Of a DNA stretch of 64,000 nucleotides, positions 2,060 to 63,421 are shown piece by piece (position 1 is the stretch's first letter; each line of letters starts with the position of its first letter). The translations under genes were made by a program, and so were the position numbers. The notes below the pieces were generated by a model. The model was not told the origin of the DNA. It saw only the letters and a list, made by a program, of their open reading frames with translations, and ran no database searches. The DNA lies in contig CP136066.1 in the NCBI GenBank assembly GCA_032622095.1, forward strand, positions 94,073,319-94,137,318, written 5' to 3'. The stretch comes from Siphonodentalium dalli. Lineage: Eukaryota > Mollusca > Scaphopoda > Gadilida > Siphonodentaliidae.

Positions 2060-2156
2060 CGTATATTAATTTAAAATGACTTCTGTTTATAAGTTGGAAT
2101 TTATTTATTGGCTATAATTCGGCCTTTATAATTTACATTTGACGTATATATATTTA
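2060..2156. repeat. Left part of a degenerate tandem repeat interrupted by the Helitron-like array
   Basis: Motifs such as AAGTTGGAATT, AATTCGGCCTTTAT and TTTACATTTGACG recur here and again at 7190-7395. The array at 2157-7185 therefore appears to have landed inside a pre-existing short tandem repeat. Confidence 0.65.
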
Positions 2157-2749
2157 CTAGCTGGTGGACCCGACTTCGTCCGGGCTGTTTCCCCTCTGCT
2201 TTTCGGCGAATTGCGCGATTTGACCTTGAATTGTCCACTTTGAAGGTCAAGGTCAGGTGGGGTCACGATTTGACCCGTCCAAAACACTGCCCGGACAAAA
2301 GTACCCGTCGAAATCCATCCGGTTTTACCCGATTTGACCTTGAATTGATCATTTTGAAGGTCAAGGTCAGGTCGGGGTCACGATTTGACCCGCCCAAAAC
2401 ACTCAGTGGAGAAAAGTAACCATATGTATCAACTTTCGTCGAAATTCCATAAAAATGCGCGATTTGACCTTGAATTGACCCGATTTCAAGGTCAAGGTCA
2501 CGTCGCATGGGCAAATGAATAGGCTTATGACACTCCCCATACGAAAGTATCCCTATACACTAATTGTGATCGAAATTCCGTGATACTCGGGCATTTGTCA
2601 AGGTCACGTTGCACGGGCAAATTAATAGGCCTATGCCACTCTCCGGCCGAAAGTACCCCCACATACCAAGTTTCATCGAAATCGGTTCGGCCGTATTCGA
2701 GTCCATCGCGAACAGACAGACAGATAGATTTCCCAAAATATATAATAGA
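2157..2749 (-). mobile_element. Helitron-like unit 1
   Basis: The + strand begins CTAGCTGGTGGACCCGAC with the stem CCCGAC-TTC-GTCCGGG. The body repeats a block of about 120 bp with GAAGGTCAAGGTCA and CGATTTGACC. The far end has GACAGACAGA followed by AAAATATATAATAGA. It shares its first roughly 170 bp with unit 4. Confidence 0.7.
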
Positions 2750-3789
2750 CTAGCCGATGAGCCCGACGTTGTCCGGGCTATTCAAAAACCAAATTTCAAG
2801 TCGATAGCTCCACCCGTTTGCGAGATCTGGTCTGCGCATGCGCGAAGCTGGCGTCGCACGGGCTCGGCGACCAGATACAATTCGTATCCGGGGCAAGATA
2901 CATTCACATAGCAAATTTCAACTTGATAGCTCCATCAGTTTCCGAGATCTCGTCTGATTTGCGGATACCTCGGTCGGTGATGAGTTAACGCGACATCGGC
3001 CGGTTAAGAGTTAAACGCGATCACGTCACGATCTCTTGACGGCGTAATAGATTCACGGAATGTTTTAAGGTAGAAACTTTAAACGGACACAGGCGTGTGA
3101 TATATCGTTGGAAAGAGGAAGCACCACAGATTCTAACCATGCAAATTATATGACTGGCAATTTATTATTCGCGCTATATCGAATCGATTTGTGAGCACCG
3201 AACTGAAATATATTAGCGCAAAACGGCGTAAAACAGATTTGACCTCGGCGCGTGAAAAGTTGATCTCGGATCTGAAATCTGATGAGCTGATATTGACCGC
3301 CTGGTCAAACTACACACACGTACCAAGTTTCGTCCCGATCGCGCCACCCGTTTCCGAGATCTGGTCTGCGCATGCGCGAAGCTGGCGTCGCACGGGCTCG
3401 GCGACCCGATACAATTCGTATCCGGGGCAAGATACATTCACATAGCAAATTTCAAGTCGATAGCTCCACCCGTTTCTGAGATCTCGTCTGCGCATGCGCG
3501 AAGCCGGTGTCGCACGGGCTCGGCGACCCGATACAATTCGTATCCGGGGCAAGATACATTCACATAGCAAATTTCAAGTCGATAGCTCCACCCGTTTCCG
3601 AGATCTCGTCTGCGCATGCGCTGCACGGGCGTCGCACGGGCTCGCCAATACGATATCGACGACCGGCTGGTCAATCTACACACACGTACCAAGTTTCGTC
3701 CCGATCGGTTGAGAATCGTAGATTTGTATTAATGACAAACAGACAGACAAACAGACAGACAGACAGAGGTCTTCAAAATATATATGAGA
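2750..3789 (-). mobile_element. Helitron-like unit 2 with 122-bp tandem core
   Basis: The stem AGCCCGAC/GTCCGGGCT lies next to CTAG. The core is a 122-123 bp minisatellite (for example copies starting at 3445 and 3568) containing TCTGCGCATGCGCGA, CACGGGCTCGG and GATACATTCACATA. A stretch of about 370 bp at 2945-3330 is unlike the other units and looks like inserted or captured DNA. The tail is a GACA-rich microsatellite, then CTTCAAAATATATATGAGA. Confidence 0.7.
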
Positions 3790-4656
3790 CTAGCCGATGA
3801 GCCAGACGTTGTCCGGGCTATTCAAAAACCAAATTTAAGTCAATAGCTCTACCCGTTTCCGAGATCTGGTCTGCGCATGCGCGAAGCTGGCGTCGCACGG
3901 GCTCGGCGACCCGATAAAATTCGTATCCGGGGCAAGATACATTCACATAGCAAATTTCAAGTCGATAGCTCCACCCGTTTCCGAGATCTGGTCTGCGCAT
4001 GCTCGAAGCTGGCGTCGCACGGGCTCGGCGACCCGATAAAATTCGTATCCGGGGCAAGATACATTCACATAGCAAACTTCAAGTCGATAGCTCCACCCGT
4101 TTCCGATATCTCGTCTGCGCATGCGCGAAGCTGGCTGTGCACGGGCTCGGCGACCCGATCAAATTCGTATCCGGGGCAAGATACATTCACATACCAAATT
4201 TCAAGTCGATAGCTCAACCCGTTTCCGAGATCTCGTCTGCGCATGCGCGAAGCTGGCGTCGCACGGGCTCTGTGACCCGATAAAATTCGTATCCGGGGCA
4301 AGATACGTTCACAAACCAAATTTCAAGTCGATAGCTCCACCCGTTTCCGAGATCTCGTCTGCGCATGCGCGAAGCTGGCATCGCACGGGCTCGGCGACCC
4401 GATAAAATTCGTATCCGGGGCAAGATACATTCACATAGGAAATTTCAAGTCGATAGCTCCACCCGTTTCCGAGATCTCGTCTGCGCATGCGCGAAGCGGG
4501 TGCCGCACGGGCTCGCCAATACGACAACGTCCACCGCCTGGTCAAACTACATACACGTACCAAGTTTCGTCCCGATCGGTCGAGAATCGTAGATTTGTAT
4601 TAATGACAAACATACAGACAAACAAACAGACATACAGACAGAGGTCTTCAAAATAT
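3790..4656 (-). mobile_element. Helitron-like unit 3 with about six 122-bp repeats
   Basis: Copies of the 122-bp repeat begin near 3828, 3952, 4074, 4196, 4318 and 4440 and are well conserved. The tail has ACATACAGACAGAGGTCTTC but lacks the full terminal TCTC on the minus strand, so this unit is slightly trimmed at its junction with unit 4. The many short reading frames here are repeat translations, not genes. Confidence 0.7.
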
Positions 4657-5409
4657 ATAGCAGGTGGACCCGACTTCGTCCGGGCTGTTTCCTCTCTGCT
4701 TTTCGGCGAATTGCGCGATTTTACCTTGAATTGTCCATTTTGAAGGTCAAGGTCAGGTGGGGTCACGATTTGACCGGTCCAAAACACTGCCCGGACAAAA
4801 GTACCCGTCGAAATCCATCCGGTTTTACCCGATTTAGAGAGTGAAGGTCACTCGAAGGTCAATGTCACGCCGCACGGGCATCCGGGTGTGACGAAATGGC
4901 TCAGCGCTTCATACTACCCGTTTCCACCAAATTCGGTGGAAATCGGCTCAGCGGATCCCGAGATATAAGTTCAAGGTCACTCGGAGGTCGAGGTCACGCC
5001 GCACCGACAGACAGACATGCCCGTGTTACCCCTGGGGTCAACCTACACCAACACCCCAAAAATGGGAGAAATCGGCCCAGCGGGTCCCGAGATACGGTTT
5101 CAAGGTCATTTTAAATGTCAAGGTCACGCCGCACGGGCATCCGGACGCGACGAATTGGCTCGGCGCCTCACACTGCCCCACATACCAAATTTGGTCCAAA
5201 TCGGCCCAGCAGGAGCCGAGATACAGGTTGAAGGTCACCGGTTTGAAGGTAAATGTCACGCCGCACGGACAAATGGACGGGCCCATGTTCGTTCCCGGGT
5301 CTAATTACGTGTCTGTACCAAATTTGGTCGAAATCGGTCCAGCCGTGTTCGAGTCCATCGCGAACACGCACACACACAAACACACAGATCTTCCAAAATA
5401 TATAATAGA
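4657..5409 (-). mobile_element. Helitron-like unit 4
   Basis: The head closely matches unit 1 (GGTGGACCCGAC, stem CCCGAC/GTCCGGG), but the expected CTAG reads ATAG. The body has three related blocks of CACGCCGCACGG, AAATCGGCCCAGC and CAAGGTCA motifs. It ends in an ACACACAAACACAC microsatellite and AAAATATATAATAGA. Confidence 0.65.
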
Positions 5410-6675
5410 CTAGCAGATTAGCCCGCCACTGGCGGGATTGATCCCATGGCTTTGGTCGATCCATTAATTATTTTTTTTCAAGGTAACCCCGTACAGGCAC
5501 GCCGAAAAAAATATTCCCCGTCCAGAGTTAACAAATAATTATTTTGTTTTTATAAATTTAAAATTGCGGAAAATTTTACCCGATGAAATCCCCCTTCCTA
5601 GGAACGACAGACAACGCATTCTTTGTTTTACTTTTTTTTTCAACCTGCCCGTACCCGTCCTAATGTCAAGGTCAGGTCGGGTGACAATTTAACCTGTTCA
5701 TGACACTTCCCGTAGACACCAAGTTTGAGCTCAATCGGTCCGAGTCTATAAAGGACACACACATATATATCATTTGTGGGTACCAGTTTCAAGGTGAAGA
5801 TCACCTCGGGCGGAAAAACTTACCCGATAAAAATTTCCCCCGTTACTTGGAACTCCTAAGTACGAAATTAAGTACGAAATTTCGCCTCGAGACGGTCAAT
5901 AGAGCCGTATTTATACTCGTCGTGTATATAGACGCTCAGTACGATAACATTGTATTGAACTGAAAACAAACGCTTCCCGTCGTGAAATCATCTCTCTGCA
6001 TAATATTTCGAGGGATAAAATTGCATTGAATTGAAAACAAACGCCGGCTTCCCGCCGTGAAAATCTCTCTGCATAATATTTCGAGCGACAGGCTACAATC
6101 TCTCTGCAGATGCGAATAACGTTGAATGGTAAACAAAACGCTCTTTATAGCGATGCGTCAAAAACAAACGCTCATTAAATTATTACTTGATTAACTACCG
6201 CGGTGCCGATTGCGGTAGACGCTCAGTACGATGACATTGTATTGAACTGAAAACAAACGCTTCCCGTCGTGAAATCATCTCTGCATAATATTTCGAGGGA
6301 TAAAATTGCATTGAATTGAAAACAAACGCTGGCTTCCCGTCGTGAAAATCTCTCTGCATAATATTTCGAGCGACAGGCTACAATCTCTCTGCAGATGCTA
6401 ATAACGTTGAATGGTAAACAAAACGCTCTTTATAGCGATGCGTCAAAAACAAACGCTCATTAAATTATGACTTGATTAACCCCCGCCGTGCCTTTGCGGT
6501 GATTTGGGAGTGGATAAAGGGTGTTCTGATCTTCTCCAAAACGCGACCACGGTCGTGTCGGTGGGATTTTACACTTACATACGAAATTTGAGCTCAATCT
6601 GTACACGCGTTTTGGGTTCCATGAAGTACACACATACATATATATATACGGAGTTCTCAAAATATATAGTATAGA
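5410..6675 (-). mobile_element. Helitron-like unit 5 with canonical termini
   Basis: On the minus strand it starts TCTATACTATATATTTTG. It ends with a perfect CCCGCC-ACT-GGCGGG stem, eight bases, then CTAG. The body is unlike the other units, which suggests shared ends with exchanged interiors. It contains a 287-bp tandem duplication. Confidence 0.7.
5930..6503. repeat. 287-bp tandem duplication inside unit 5
   Basis: Two copies start with AGACGCTCAGTACGAT at 5930 and 6217. Each itself holds two diverged subrepeats around GAAAACAAACGC and GCATAATATTTCGAG. Differences between the copies are few. Confidence 0.8.
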
Positions 6676-7185
6676 CTAGCCGATGAGCCCGACGTTGTCC
6701 GGGCTATTCAAAAACCAAATTTCAAGTCGATAGCTCCACCCTTTTCCGAGATCTGGTCTGCGCATGCACGAAGCGTGCGTCGCACGAGCTCGGCGACCCG
6801 ATAAAATTCGTATCCGGGGCAAGATACATTCACATAGCAAATTTCAAGTCGATAGCTCCACCCGTTTCCGAGATCTCGTCTGCGCATGCGCGAAGCTTGC
6901 GTCGCACGGGCTCGGCGACCCGATAAAATTCGTATCCGGGGCAAGATACATTATCATAGCAAATTTCAAGTCGATAGCTCCACCCGTTTCCGAGATCTCG
7001 TCTGCGCATGCGCGAAGCTGGCGCCGCACGGGCTCGCCAATACGACAACGACGACCGCCTGGTCAAACTACATACACGTACCAAGTTTCGTCCCGATCGG
7101 TGGAGAATCGTAGATTTGTATCAATGACAGACATACAAACATACAAACATACAAACATACAGAGGTCTTCAAAATATATATGAGA
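6676..7185 (-). mobile_element. Helitron-like unit 6 with three 122-bp repeats
   Basis: Same head and core as units 2 and 3; core copies begin near 6716, 6838 and 6960. The tail is ACAAACATACAAACATAC, then AAAATATATATGAGA. The base after it is T7186, preserving the A|T target at the outer edge of the array. Confidence 0.7.
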
Positions 7186-7395
7186 TTTTAAAAAGATTGT
7201 TAAGTTGGAATTGACGTATTTCTGCAATTCGGCCTTTATTAATTTACATTTTAAATTAATTTTAAAATTACTTTTGTTAAATTGGAATTGACTTTCTGCT
7301 GGTAATTCGACATTTGTTAATTTTCATTTGACTTCTATTAAATTGGAATGGACCTATTGATTAATAGTTAACACCTATTTATTTTTATTTGACGT
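7186..7395. repeat. Right part of the interrupted degenerate tandem repeat
   Basis: Three degraded copies of TAAATTGGAATTGAC / AATTCGGCCTTTATTAA / CATTTGACTTC continue the pattern seen at 2060-2156. Confidence 0.65.
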
Positions 7396-9203: not shown

Positions 9204-9609
9204 ATTTATCAGGTCCGGCTAGGCGTCACCACCAAATAACGAATTAAGCTGCGAACTTTCAAGAATTGTTTAACTGATATAATTATACTGTTCAGCATAC
9301 ATTGCTTTATCAAATGGAAGAGTAGATAGAAAGTCCAACGCCAAAAGTAACTTCACATATATAGAGTGTTCACAAACGCCCAATAGTGGCCACATACTGT
9401 ATATATATATATAGTTTTGGTTAAAAGTACCCCAGGGTATGTGTGTTTTCTCGATAATAAATCGTCTACTCCGTACAGCGGGCGCACATGTGCTCTTTTA
9501 ATAACAACTGATGTATTTATATATTTAGGGCAGTCCACAGCAAATTAGTTTCAATGTGCTTTACGTGATTATTACCCCGGTCATAGGACATTGTATCCAT
9601 TATATCCAC

Positions 9610-9701
9610 CCTCGCTCAAGACCAGCCAATAAGTGTGTCAGGATTAGCATACTGCCAATATCCGTCGACTCCCGATCGGGTACTCATTTGACGAGACAGA
9701 A
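9610..9701 (-). repeat. SINE body fragment without head
   Basis: These 92 bp match 10516-10607 with one visible mismatch (GATCGGG versus GGTCGGG). The tRNA-like head seen next to the second copy is absent. Confidence 0.65.
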
Positions 9702-10449: not shown

Positions 10450-10702
10450 TGTATATAAATTATTTAAATTAATGACGCTCCCACGAGGAGGCAATGAACC
10501 AATAAACCAAACCATCCTCGCTCAAGACCAGCCAATAAGTGTGTCAGGATTAGCATACTGCCAATATCCGTCGACTCCCGGTCGGGTACTCATTTGACGA
10601 GACAGAAAGTGGGATGCGAACGCATGGCGTTTTCACACTATGACGTTCTGATGCGAGTACGCTAACCAATTGCACTGGACCACCGCTCTCCGAGCGGGTT
10701 GT
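10450..10702 (-). mobile_element. tRNA-derived SINE-like element
   Basis: On the minus strand, 10700-10611 has an A-box-like TGGTCCAGTGC and, about 50 nt later, a B-box-like GCGTTCGCATCC, the internal RNA polymerase III promoter layout of tRNAs. It is not a foldable mature tRNA by eye. It runs into the body at 10607-10516 that is duplicated at 9610-9701. The 3' limit toward 10450 is uncertain. Confidence 0.5.
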
Positions 10703-12353: not shown

Positions 12354-12439
12354 AAACAAATTTATTTGAGCTCCATGAATTCTGTTATATTAGTTCCCAG
12401 TTCCTAGTTCCCAGTTCTCAAAATATATAATAATCGTTA

Positions 12440-25201: not shown

Positions 25202-25724
25202 CTAGCCGATGAGCCCGACGTTTTCCGGGCTATTCAAAAACCAAATTTCAAGTCGATAGCTCTACCCAGCGCTATTCGAAAACCAAATTTCAAGTCGATC
25301 GCTCTACCCGTTTCCGAGATCTGGTCTGCGCATGCGCGAAGCTGGCGTCGCACGGGCTCGGCGACCCGATAAAATTCGTATCCGGGGCAAGATACATTCA
25401 CATACCAAATTTCAAGTCGATAGCTACACCCGTTTCCGAGATCTCGTCTGCGCATGCGTGAAGCTGGTGTCGCACGGGCTCGGCGACCCGATAAAATTCG
25501 CATCCGGGGCAAGATACATTCACATATCAAATTTCAAGTCGATAGCTCCACCCGTTTCCGAGATCTCGTCTGCGCATGCACGAAGCGGGCGCCGCACGGG
25601 CTCGCCAATACGACAACGACGACCGCCTGGTCAAACTACACACACGTACCAAGTTTCGTCCCGATCGGTCAAGAATCGTAGATTTGTATTAATGACAGAC
25701 AGACAGACAAACAAACATACATAC
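25202..25724 (-). mobile_element. Helitron-like unit 7
   Basis: CTAG, then the AGCCCGAC/TTCCGGGCT stem (one base changed from the array units), a partly repeated head (25244-25290) and about three 122-bp repeats. The tail stops at ACATACATAC and lacks the usual CTTCAAAATATAT...TCT end. The right-hand 167-bp copy begins at once. Confidence 0.7.
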
Positions 25725-25891
25725 AGTATACTATGGTATGTAGTGGCATTACTATGGTATACCATAGTACACTACATTGTAACTATAATGAAAAGAAATG
25801 AGAATTTGTTCACGCTCACCGAGTTAAGCACATATCAAGCAATAAACACTCATACTGAGTCCCTGCCACCATAACTCTCATATATATAGTA
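25725..25891. repeat. Right copy of the perfect 167-bp direct repeat
   Basis: Begins AGTATACTATGG directly after the microsatellite tail of unit 7. With the left copy it gives a 690-bp period of 1.24 copies. Confidence 0.9.
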
Positions 25892-61088: not shown

Positions 61089-61591
61089 TAATTCCAACTG
61101 AATCGAATGAACTATTTGTGCACAGGGAACAGCCTAGAGGTTTCAATTTTGGAGGTCACTTCTCCCTGTTTGATTATTGGGGAGAAGTGGCCTGCAATCA
61201 GGGAGAATTAACAATGGCTGAAGTTCAATTTACACCCCAATATCACCCTGCTATGATCCAATAGGTATCAAGCAACATTTATAAAACCAATGTACATAGT
61301 GAGTAGCAACACCTTCATAATCAGTAATTTTATATCATAAATTAGGTACTCACCTGATATAATTTGTTCTGGATATTTATCCCTAGCGCCCACTATCGCC
61401 TAGCTTAATATTTACATATAAAACGGCATTCCGAAATTTCGTTTCGGCATGCAGTTGTAACTTTTAATTTCGTTTCGTAATTCCGTACGCATGTACTTTG
61501 TGTTAACCCTCAATCTGCCTCTATTTCTTCTAGGCGCTTGCCACGGAAACATCGCAAGTATACTCGCTCCTGTTTTTTCTTTTTCTGAGAT
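61089..61591 (+). other. Probable 5' non-coding part of the DIRS-like element, plus spacer
   Basis: Roughly 61340-61591 lies just ahead of the gag-like frame and is more GC-rich than the spacer before it. It contains GTACTCACCTGATAT and a CCGAAATTTCGTTTCGG palindrome. A DIRS terminal repeat is inferred from position only. Confidence 0.3.
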
Positions 61592-62988
61592 ATGTCGGAG
61601 TCAAACGCTCACGACTCACCTGTTGACGAGGAGACTATACGTCCTCGCGGTCACAGGAACGATATCTATGATCAATTTGCGAAAAGAATTATCTGATGAA
61701 TTTTCAAAAATGCGAGACGAATTTTTTCGCAAAAATACTTCAGCTTCTGTGGAAGCAACGGAGGTTCAGGCGCCTGGCTCAGGGCCTCAAACAAATTCCA
61801 AACATACGAGTCGCTCGTCAGGTCGACGGAACAAGCGACTTTGTCCAGATACCCATGCTGCCGGTAGTTCTTCTTCTGAACTAGACGACCATGAGGACAA
61901 TGACAATGTGTCACTGGCATGTAGCCAAACTATTCATGTGGACAATGTGAATGACATTCATGATTCTGACGTGGAGGACATAACTTTGCCTCTCCCAGTG
62001 GCTCCTGCGGAGCAAATTTCTGTACAAAAAGGTCTTTTGGAACTGTTTGGCGAAGATGCCTTAACCAAAACACAGGATGTTCAGCAAGGTCTTTTGCTTG
62101 ATCGGACACAGAATATGGTGTTACAGCAGACATGGCGGTCAGAAAAGCCCCAGCATGTCAGTGCTTTCCCGGAGGGAACTTACACCGAATTTCCAATTCA
62201 TACTGACAGTGAACGGTTGGTTCTTAGCCGTTCCTTCCATGGAAGACCTTGTGAAGCGGTGTGTCTTAAAGCAGCACAATAAACCCATCACCAAGGATCT
62301 CAAGGGTCTCATCGGCATGCCTTATAAGTCAATTGAAATGATGGCATTCAAAGGTCACTGTTCTGCTCATGCCGGTATAGCCATCACATGTTATTTGCAA
62401 CAAGCTTTGGCCAAAACTCTGACGGAGCTCAACAAAGAGGAACCGGATACAGACGTTCTATCTACCCTTATTCGCGATACGTTCGCCATGTCCACTCGGA
62501 TTCTCGATCAATTTGGTCGCTGTGGCGTTTTCCACCATCTAATCAGACGTCAATCCACTCTCACTGACTCTGGTCTGCGGAAGGTGGATGAAGGTCGGGA
62601 CCTTTTTCATATGCCTCTGTCTCGTGATGGCATTTTTGGTCCAGAGTTGGAAACTCGCTTGAAGGATCATAAAGAACGCTCGAAGGCCTTGGATGAACTT
62701 TTTCATGAGACCGGTCCCAAACCCAAAGGTGGGAAAAGGCCAGCAGCTAGTGCTAGTACCAACTCAGCTCCAGGGCCACCTCGTCCCCTGAAAAGACAAT
62801 TTGTTCCCACATCTGATTTTCAAGGGCACAGATCTCCACTGGACAATGTCGGTGGTGGTCCTTCTTCCGGTTCTACCGGAAGTTCTTTTTGTGGCTACAA
62901 TACTCAGCGACAATCGAGCACAGCACCAACCACGAAATTCAAAATTCCGAAGAGAGGCAACCAGCGGGGCAGAGGCAACCGCAGTTGA
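61592..62988 (+). pseudogene. gag: DIRS-like gag, disrupted
   Basis: The first ORF of a DIRS-type tyrosine-recombinase retrotransposon. A likely start is the ATG at 61592 (MSESNAHDSP). The reading shifts frame near 61665-61680, at an A-run, and again near 62230. Both look like single-base insertions, so this copy cannot make the full product. The first third is acidic and Ser-rich. The middle has ELFGEDALTKTQDVQQG. The end has conserved-looking HLIRRQ and DLFHM blocks and finishes in a Gly/Arg-rich tail (GNQRGRGNRS) before TGA at 62986-62988. Naming rests on the RT that follows and on the typical gag layout. Confidence 0.6.
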
Positions 62989-62992
62989 CTAC

Positions 62993-63421
62993 ATGATGGT
63001 GAGTACATTACCTACAATTCCTTATCCCGATGTTCTGGTGGGGGGACATTTTCAAACTTTTGTTCCTCGCTGGCAACAAATAACATCCGACCCATGGACT
63101 CTGGAAGTCATCAGCAATGGGTACCGATTCAATTTTGTGACACTGCCACCGTTTCGGGGCATCACCGTGACCAAGGTCAACCAAACACAGCATGCTCTGT
63201 TAGACACGGCCATTCAAAATCTTTTGGAATTAAATGCTATCGAACGTGTTCCCCCCGAATTAACTCAGGCCGGTTTTTACAGTACGCTGTTTCTGGTCCG
63301 CAAGAAAAATGGGGACTATCGTCCAGTTTTAAACCTCAAAACTTTAAACCTTTATATAAACGAGAGGCCGATCACGATCGGCAGATGTTTAACCCATCCC
63401 TTGGCGATAGTAAATTGTTAA
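62993..63421 (+). pseudogene. pol: DIRS-like reverse transcriptase, 5' fragment
   Basis: It starts at ATG 62993 or 62996, five to eight bases after the gag stop, in another frame. The protein shows GGHFQTFVPRW, then SDPWTLEVISNGY, and GFYSTLFLVRKKNGDYRP leading into LNLKTLN. This is the N-terminal part of the DIRS-type RT domain (fingers region, family knowledge). The fragment ends before the catalytic YxDD box: similarity is lost at about 63365, next to the palindrome GCCGATCACGATCGGC (63367-63382). The last 17 codons are unrelated. RNase H, methylase and tyrosine recombinase regions are all missing. Confidence 0.75.

Follow-up and report, generated by a model that had tools for sequence, protein, structure and literature searches.

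How does a tandem array of transposons arise in which each unit begins exactly where the preceding one ends? The question is raised by a stretch of 64,000 nucleotides of the scaphopod Siphonodentalium dalli (contig CP136066.1, positions 94,073,319 to 94,137,318), hereafter the window, in which six Helitron-type units lie head-to-tail on the minus strand. More than 27,000 similar joins are present in the genome assembly (GCA_032622095.1; 2,226,750,531 bases in 9 contigs), nearly all in the same relative orientation and some between different families. We propose, with a probability that we estimate at about 0.6, that such arrays grow by repeated insertion of elements at the 5' boundary of a resident element, in the same orientation, with local amplification in some arrays. 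An earlier note, made from the letters of the window, had offered two possible mechanisms, rolling-circle read-through and repeated insertion at the same junction, without deciding between them; we favor the second for mixed arrays and regard the first as likely for some near-identical runs.

Read on the minus strand, the array is preceded by an A at position 7186, starts with TC at 7185-7184, terminates with a CTAG ending at 2157, and is followed by a T at 2156. Four of its five internal joins are exact CTAG/TC junctions (6676/6675, 5410/5409, 3790/3789, and 2750/2749). The join pattern therefore has four matches in the window, compared with a mean of 0.00 in 100 shuffles. The fifth join, at about 4658, reads CTGCTA/TATATTTTG. 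By inspection, it matches a normal join except that 8 bp (GTCTCATA) are missing between two TA steps, and it reads like an originally exact join from which these 8 bp have since been lost. Unit 3 has an exact 5' join and a damaged 3' join, and unit 4, with an exact 3' join, has a 5' motif that runs from TATATTTTGAAGA at 4657. Thus, the TC start is found in units 1, 2, 3, 5, and 6 and is lost in unit 4, and the CTAG terminus is found in five of the six units and is reduced to CTA in unit 3. Intact units share the TC start, followed by an AT-rich stretch (TATATATTTTG), and the CTAG end. According to their ends, the units are ordered A, C, B, A, A, B, the letters A to D being our own family labels. 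Their bodies differ. Units 1, 4, and 5 contain a 122-bp satellite, interrupted in unit 5 by a foreign segment (about 2970-3290, read by eye), units 3 and 6 contain CAAGGTCA blocks, and unit 2 contains a 285-bp duplication. The last 178 bp of unit 3 are 97% identical to unit 6. The boundaries, the precise end-to-end joins of six units, and the shared ends with differing bodies had all been described in the earlier note and hold. The 3' stem-loop that it had assigned to every unit stands out by single-strand folding in units 1, 2, and 5, where an equally good fold is reached by 6 to 13 of 200 shuffles (unit 1, -6.4 kcal/mol, 13 of 200; unit 2, -7.1 kcal/mol, 6 of 200). It does not in units 3, 4, and 6, where 75 to 128 of 200 shuffles fold equally.

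Both host flanks of the array belong to the same minisatellite. We joined 66 bases of the 5' flank to 72 bases of the 3' flank and searched the genome with this 138-base query for uninterrupted copies. It matched copies of a minisatellite of about 82 bp at 76 places, two of which are the window's own flanks. The best uninterrupted copy shows 83% identity over query positions 1-133. In the three copies aligned in detail, the breakpoint, TTTTAAAA/TTAATA, is read without interruption. These copies are paralogous sites and not alleles. As they run uninterrupted through the A^T step, they indicate a single insertion point between A and T without target duplication, and show that the window array inserted there with nothing lost or duplicated.

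Genome-wide, the exact-join pattern has 27,452 matches (13,179 + 14,273), compared with 26 for the reversed-pattern control. A-flanked 5' ends number 30,328 (control, 3,564). After subtraction of the controls, roughly half of the recognizable 5' ends directly follow a CTAG; some of the A-flanked ends are double or leader matches, which makes this proportion rough. Head-to-head joins occur at only two places (control, 0). Both places carry the same rare end variant on their two arms, as would be expected of an inverted duplication. Insertion at A^T in random orientation was considered and rejected, since it predicts head-to-head joins about as frequent as head-to-tail ones.

For a closer view, 45 array regions (L005-L049) were drawn from the first 100 listed exact-join places, all located at 0.4-13.6 Mb of contig C1. 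This sample does not include the places listed near 8.98, 13.18-13.19, and 13.72-13.77 Mb, part of the last corresponding to L068/L069. Together with 15 "single"-end regions of C1 and the window, they gave 110 complete units, all starting with TC by construction, as they were found with a TC pattern. A host A precedes the first unit in 46 of 48 cases, a count that is not independent because the 15 single-end regions among the 60 were picked for an A before TC. A T follows the last unit in 37 of 42 cases. Upstream of the 81 sampled joins, a recognized 3' end type is present in 77 and the remaining four are unrecognized.

The joined units frequently belong to different families, and their order is biased. 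Writing A-B for a family-A 3' end joined to a family-B 5' end, the 81 sampled joins comprise 19 A-B, no B-A, 17 A-A, 10 C-C, 9 B-B, 4 C-A, 3 A-C, and 3 D-D joins, others being fewer; L034 and L035, apparent copies of one array, are both counted. Exact family patterns in the whole genome give 3,038 A-B, 598 B-A, 6,748 A-A, and 4,168 B-B joins (controls, 0). Among the places listed for the first 71.4 Mb of C1, A-B joins outnumber B-A joins by 100 to 7, and the B-A matches include amplified blocks. Across 38 A-B loci, the distances between A units and those between B units are not significantly correlated (Mantel r = 0.135, p = 0.09), so that most A-B pairs look independently assembled, with few exceptions. 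The 3,038 A-B joins and this nonsignificant correlation favor repeated 5'-end insertion as the origin of the mixed arrays. In one subfamily of B (in L008, L012, L019, L035, L047, L054, and L062), the last 160 bp consist of a satellite body resembling that of A and a terminator of B type, a case of interior exchange.

None of the six window units contains a RepHel open reading frame (ORF), and a Pfam scan of four window ORFs found no family. Elsewhere in the genome, PF14214 (Helitron_like_N) has at least 151 matches (150 of 457 candidates scored). One coding copy on C1 is bounded by A-type ends on both sides. Its ORF of 1,614 amino acids carries Helitron_like_N (Rep), PIF1, and Pif1_2B domains, with an HUH motif at residue 692; no endonuclease family was found in this ORF, the one scanned. 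The first 283 bp of the element mostly match A units at 84-92%. On contig C2, two RepHel matches at 141,795,020 and 141,803,591, 8,571 bp apart, are separated by an exact A-type join (L109). Over 842 aligned columns, the sequence on the 5' side of this join shares 98% identity with the 3' end of the C1 RepHel element, and stretches on the other side of the join match the 5' part of the same element. Coding members therefore have A-type ends and also stack, although the gaps between neighboring RepHel matches in L110 (C6) and L111 (C1) contain no such exact join. The earlier note had implied further copies bounded at the same CTAG and TC positions, one breakpoint, and an autonomous Rep/helicase element with the same ends. 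All of these were found: the first in the genome-wide joins, the second in the uninterrupted paralogous sites, and the third in the C1 copy and the C2 join.

We suggest a model that takes up the observed ends, joins, single host breakpoint, orientation bias, mixed families, order bias, and coding copies. The units would be canonical Helitrons, a type of Rep/helicase DNA transposon that moves by rolling circle, mostly non-coding and mobilized by RepHel-coding relatives with the same ends. Once an element occupies an A^T site, its own first T would form a new A^T with the preceding host A. The transposase, for which the step between flank and TC is the regular nicking site of a Helitron 5' end, would nick the resident there, the putative targeting step, and join the incoming copy. 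The product, A/TC(new)...CTAG/TC(resident)...CTAG/T, would always be head-to-tail. The AT-rich stretch within the 5' end may mimic the AT-rich 3' flank favored by Helitrons, recognition of the resident end would set the orientation, and the near-identical ends of related families would permit cross-family stacking. Unequal exchange or rolling-circle concatemers could later amplify some arrays. The 3' boundary of the resident is G/T and not A^T, which may explain growth favoring the 5' side. Growth mainly on this side is partly supported: the order bias agrees with it, and the age data do so only in part. A more specific version, which we advance tentatively and at less than even odds, is that the Helitron 5' end is an attachment site. 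Rep would catalyze an oriented cross-family strand exchange between the CTAG/TC of the incoming circle and the A/TC of the resident. Related families would thereby build cassette-like arrays, in whose order the history of activity is preserved and from which satellites subsequently arise.

If arrays grow at their 5' side, upstream units should be the younger ones. Divergence was measured over the last 140-160 bp of the units; an age estimate from the nearest relative of whole units (A, 94.3%; B, 92.4%) was set aside because the satellites misalign. Over the last 140 bp, divergence from the consensus is about 2.6% for A and 4.6% for the main B cluster, and about 1.9% for the smaller B cluster with the A-like body and B-type terminator. 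Of 39 A-B joins found, one duplicate was removed and 23 of the remaining 38 were usable. In 16 of these 23 pairs, the A unit shows less divergence than the B unit that follows it (Wilcoxon one-sided p = 0.028; sign test p = 0.047). Of the seven loci of reverse order (B-A) in which an A end was found, three (L096, L097, and L099) have a further element behind the A unit, as if A had inserted between two units.

Several observations weigh against 5'-end insertion. In the reciprocal B-A loci (10 fetched, six usable), none of the six shows a lower divergence for the upstream B; in two of them the A end is doubtful, being followed by neither a join nor a host T. The A-B age test may thus partly reflect B being the more varied family. 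Of the four pairs in B cluster 3, one has A as the less diverged member, and no age gradient was seen along runs of family A, for which the two unit stretches used disagree. The pattern for head-to-head joins requires two exact ends, and such joins form a palindrome that might be lost more often. For off-register joins, shifted from the TC, 5,253 matches were counted (930 in the control). Among the first 100 listed, some 40 lie at a second A^T within the C-type end with unchanged orientation, and others look like mutated ends. Finally, neighbors can be related: the A-B pairs of L006/L078 and L076/L077 look co-copied, adjacent A units are nearer to each other (0.037) than A units of different loci (0.056; 13 vs. 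1,010 pairs, p = 0.0065), and C-C neighbors are 0.99-1.0 identical (4 pairs) compared with 0.853 between loci (57 pairs). The near-identical C-C neighbors and the modestly closer A neighbors indicate that local amplification also occurs.

This last resemblance is expected if rolling-circle replication, from a circle or by terminator bypass, yields, in a single event, tandem copies that are inserted as a block. Helraiser is described as producing head-to-tail circles with exact 3'-5' joins (PMC5876387), and the exact join between the two RepHel matches on C2 could have this origin. However, joins between different families, of which A-B alone provides 3,038, are impossible from a single circle, the A-B pairings are not significantly congruent, and the units retain their 3' ends, as the 110 complete ones attest, unlike those of plant arrays attributed to terminator loss. 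As a general origin of the arrays, read-through therefore seems unlikely to us; some of the runs whose units are near-identical, however, are likely products of read-through, concatemers, or unequal exchange.

Elements that share their ends might also have been built into arrays, without any targeted insertion, by unequal exchange, gene conversion, or segmental duplication, and amplified blocks do exist. At C1:188850288-188868830, 17 successive B-A joins alternate with spacings of 1.06 and 1.19 kb (range 1.06-1.20 kb); this block is an amplified, satellite-like mixed array. A 2,405-bp tandem duplication lies inside L008, and L034 and L035 resemble duplicated arrays. Exchange between dispersed copies would not, however, by itself give exact CTAG/TC joins flanked by one host A and one T, and the window array occupies one uninterrupted host site. 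We regard these processes as an improbable primary source.

The preference for insertion at resident 5' ends has to be set beside the general target preference of these elements. A/T residues make up 93% of the 12 bases after the last unit (n = 37 flanks) and 72% of the 12 bases before the first (n = 46). Helraiser is described as having an AT preference that is strongest on the 3' side and an AT-rich region within the 5' end, and its cleavage of single-stranded 5'-end DNA falls between the flank and TC (PMC4778049). By analogy, a resident 5' end would so be both a cleavage site and a good-looking target. Ordinary choice of AT-rich targets might then suffice, the resident 5' ends being just good A^T sites unrecognized as ends. 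The preferred AT-rich 3' side is indeed available at a resident 5' end, and the second A^T of the C-type end is used. But A^T sites with a similarly AT-rich 3' side number about 74 million, a rough extrapolation from the window, and exceed the element 5' ends, roughly 54,000, by about a thousand to one. With about half of the recognizable ends joined, AT-richness alone is insufficient. Furthermore, 18 of the 46 5' flanks have at least 10 A/T in their 12 outer bases, and the element ends hold 10-11 of 12. AT-richness alone would thus be expected to permit thousands of head-to-head joins, whereas the orientation ratio is 27,452 to 2. We consider this explanation very improbable. In cultured cells, 701 new Helraiser insertions are reported with AT target choice and without local clustering (PMC4778049).

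Table 1. Coordinates of the array, its units and host flanks (window positions), and of a coding relative
Feature	Position	Strand	Description
Whole array	7185-2157	minus	Six Helitron-type units, head-to-tail
Unit 1, family A	6676..7185	minus	5' TCTCAT..; 122-bp satellite body; 3' ..CGGGCTCATCGGCTAG
Unit 2, family C	5410..6675	minus	5' TCTATAC..; 3' ..GGCGGGCTAATCTGCTAG; both joins exact
Duplication of unit 2	5929-6500		285 bp, within the family C unit
Unit 3, family B	4658..5409	minus	5' TCTATT..; CAAGGTCA blocks; CTAG without last G
Unit 4, family A	3790..4657	minus	122-bp satellite; 5' end short by about 8 bp
Unit 5, family A	2750..3789	minus	Satellite interrupted by unrelated segment; both joins exact
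Unit 6, family B	2157..2749	minus	3' ..GGGTCCACCAGCTAG, then host T at 2156
5'-side host flank	7186..7251	minus	Minisatellite, last base A
3'-side host flank	2085..2156	minus	Same minisatellite, first base T
RepHel copy	C1:13743912	minus	8,675-bp stretch, A-type 5' end to A-type 3' end, junction-rich region
RepHel ORF	L068:1865-6706	minus	STPR domain PF21107 (residues 148-218) ahead of Rep

Related sequences occur elsewhere in the window. A lone A-type 3' end (CTAG/TACTATAT) lies on the minus strand at 25202-25874, adjoined by a reading frame of the 122-bp satellite and with an unrecognized 5' end. At 12415-12429, an isolated minus-strand motif, TATATATTTTGAGAA, resembles a 5' end without TC at the expected position. 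Two pairs of direct repeats, each about 0.9 kb apart, were also noted: 82 bp with 100% identity (1-82 and 945-1026) and 96 bp with 98% identity (9606-9701 and 10512-10607). Overlapping ORFs at 61491-63421 are a candidate for what we take, from motif resemblance, to be a retroelement; Pfam finds no family in the three of them scanned. Telomere-like repeats are present at four contig ends of the assembly.

Concatemers, terminator bypass, and repeated insertion are the candidate origins of tandem Helitron arrays. They become separable by counting in a genome that holds over 27,000 exact joins, contains coding members and mixed families, and shows a strong orientation bias. If 5' ends are oriented targets, Helitron target choice would have a specific component beyond A^T, arrays could be read as insertion histories, and dispersed transposons could give rise to satellite DNA directly, with no need for target duplication.

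Tandem Helitrons themselves are known. They have been reported in plants, bats, Drosophila, and fungi, rolling-circle replication being the usual explanation and 5'-end insertion being mentioned as an alternative (PMC5148889, PMC5876387, PMC12628747); head-to-tail junctions and tandem arrays are mentioned for plant and bat genomes (PMC5876387). What seems new here is the scale, the mixed families, the complete units, and the orientation lock. The available text of the open-licence papers searched describes no orientation-locked, mixed-family arrays of complete units at such a scale, and priority is not settled by it. With the bat Helitrons Helraiser and Helibat, the elements share the 5'-TC and CTAG-3' ends, A/T insertion, the 3'-side AT lean, and, in window units 1, 2, and 5, the 3' hairpin, and the circular intermediates of these elements have exact end joins like the joins seen here (PMC4778049, PMC5876387). 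Unlike here, stacking on resident 5' ends does not figure in the Helraiser account cited (PMC4778049).

The truncated centromeric Helitron arrays of plants (Xiong et al. 2016, cited in PMC12628747 and PMC5148889) are likewise head-to-tail. As described there, they have many 5' ends and a single 3' end, in accordance with terminator loss, whereas the units joined here have their own 3' ends, keep both ends, and mix families. The non-coding rolling-circle elements Cg_HINE/Helentron of oyster also have satellite-like cores, but are described with TT or T-rich insertion sites and Helentron-type ends (PMC7492417); the elements of S. dalli insert at A^T, not TT, and have the TC and CTAG ends that Helentrons and HINEs lack. 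Also related to our proposal are the tandem and self-insertions of FoHeli in Fusarium and Metarhizium, for which the authors suggest, as an alternative to rolling-circle replication, insertion into or beside the 5' end of another Helitron; as presented in that account, these are single cases, without genome-wide orientation, family-order, or empty-site evidence (PMC5148889). The double insertion of McGurk and Barbash (2018, cited in PMC12628747) similarly derives tandem dimers, which may become satellites, from repeated insertion at a preferred site. This route is described for target-duplicating elements (PMC12628747). Helitrons duplicate no target, but the host A and the first T of the element restore the A^T.

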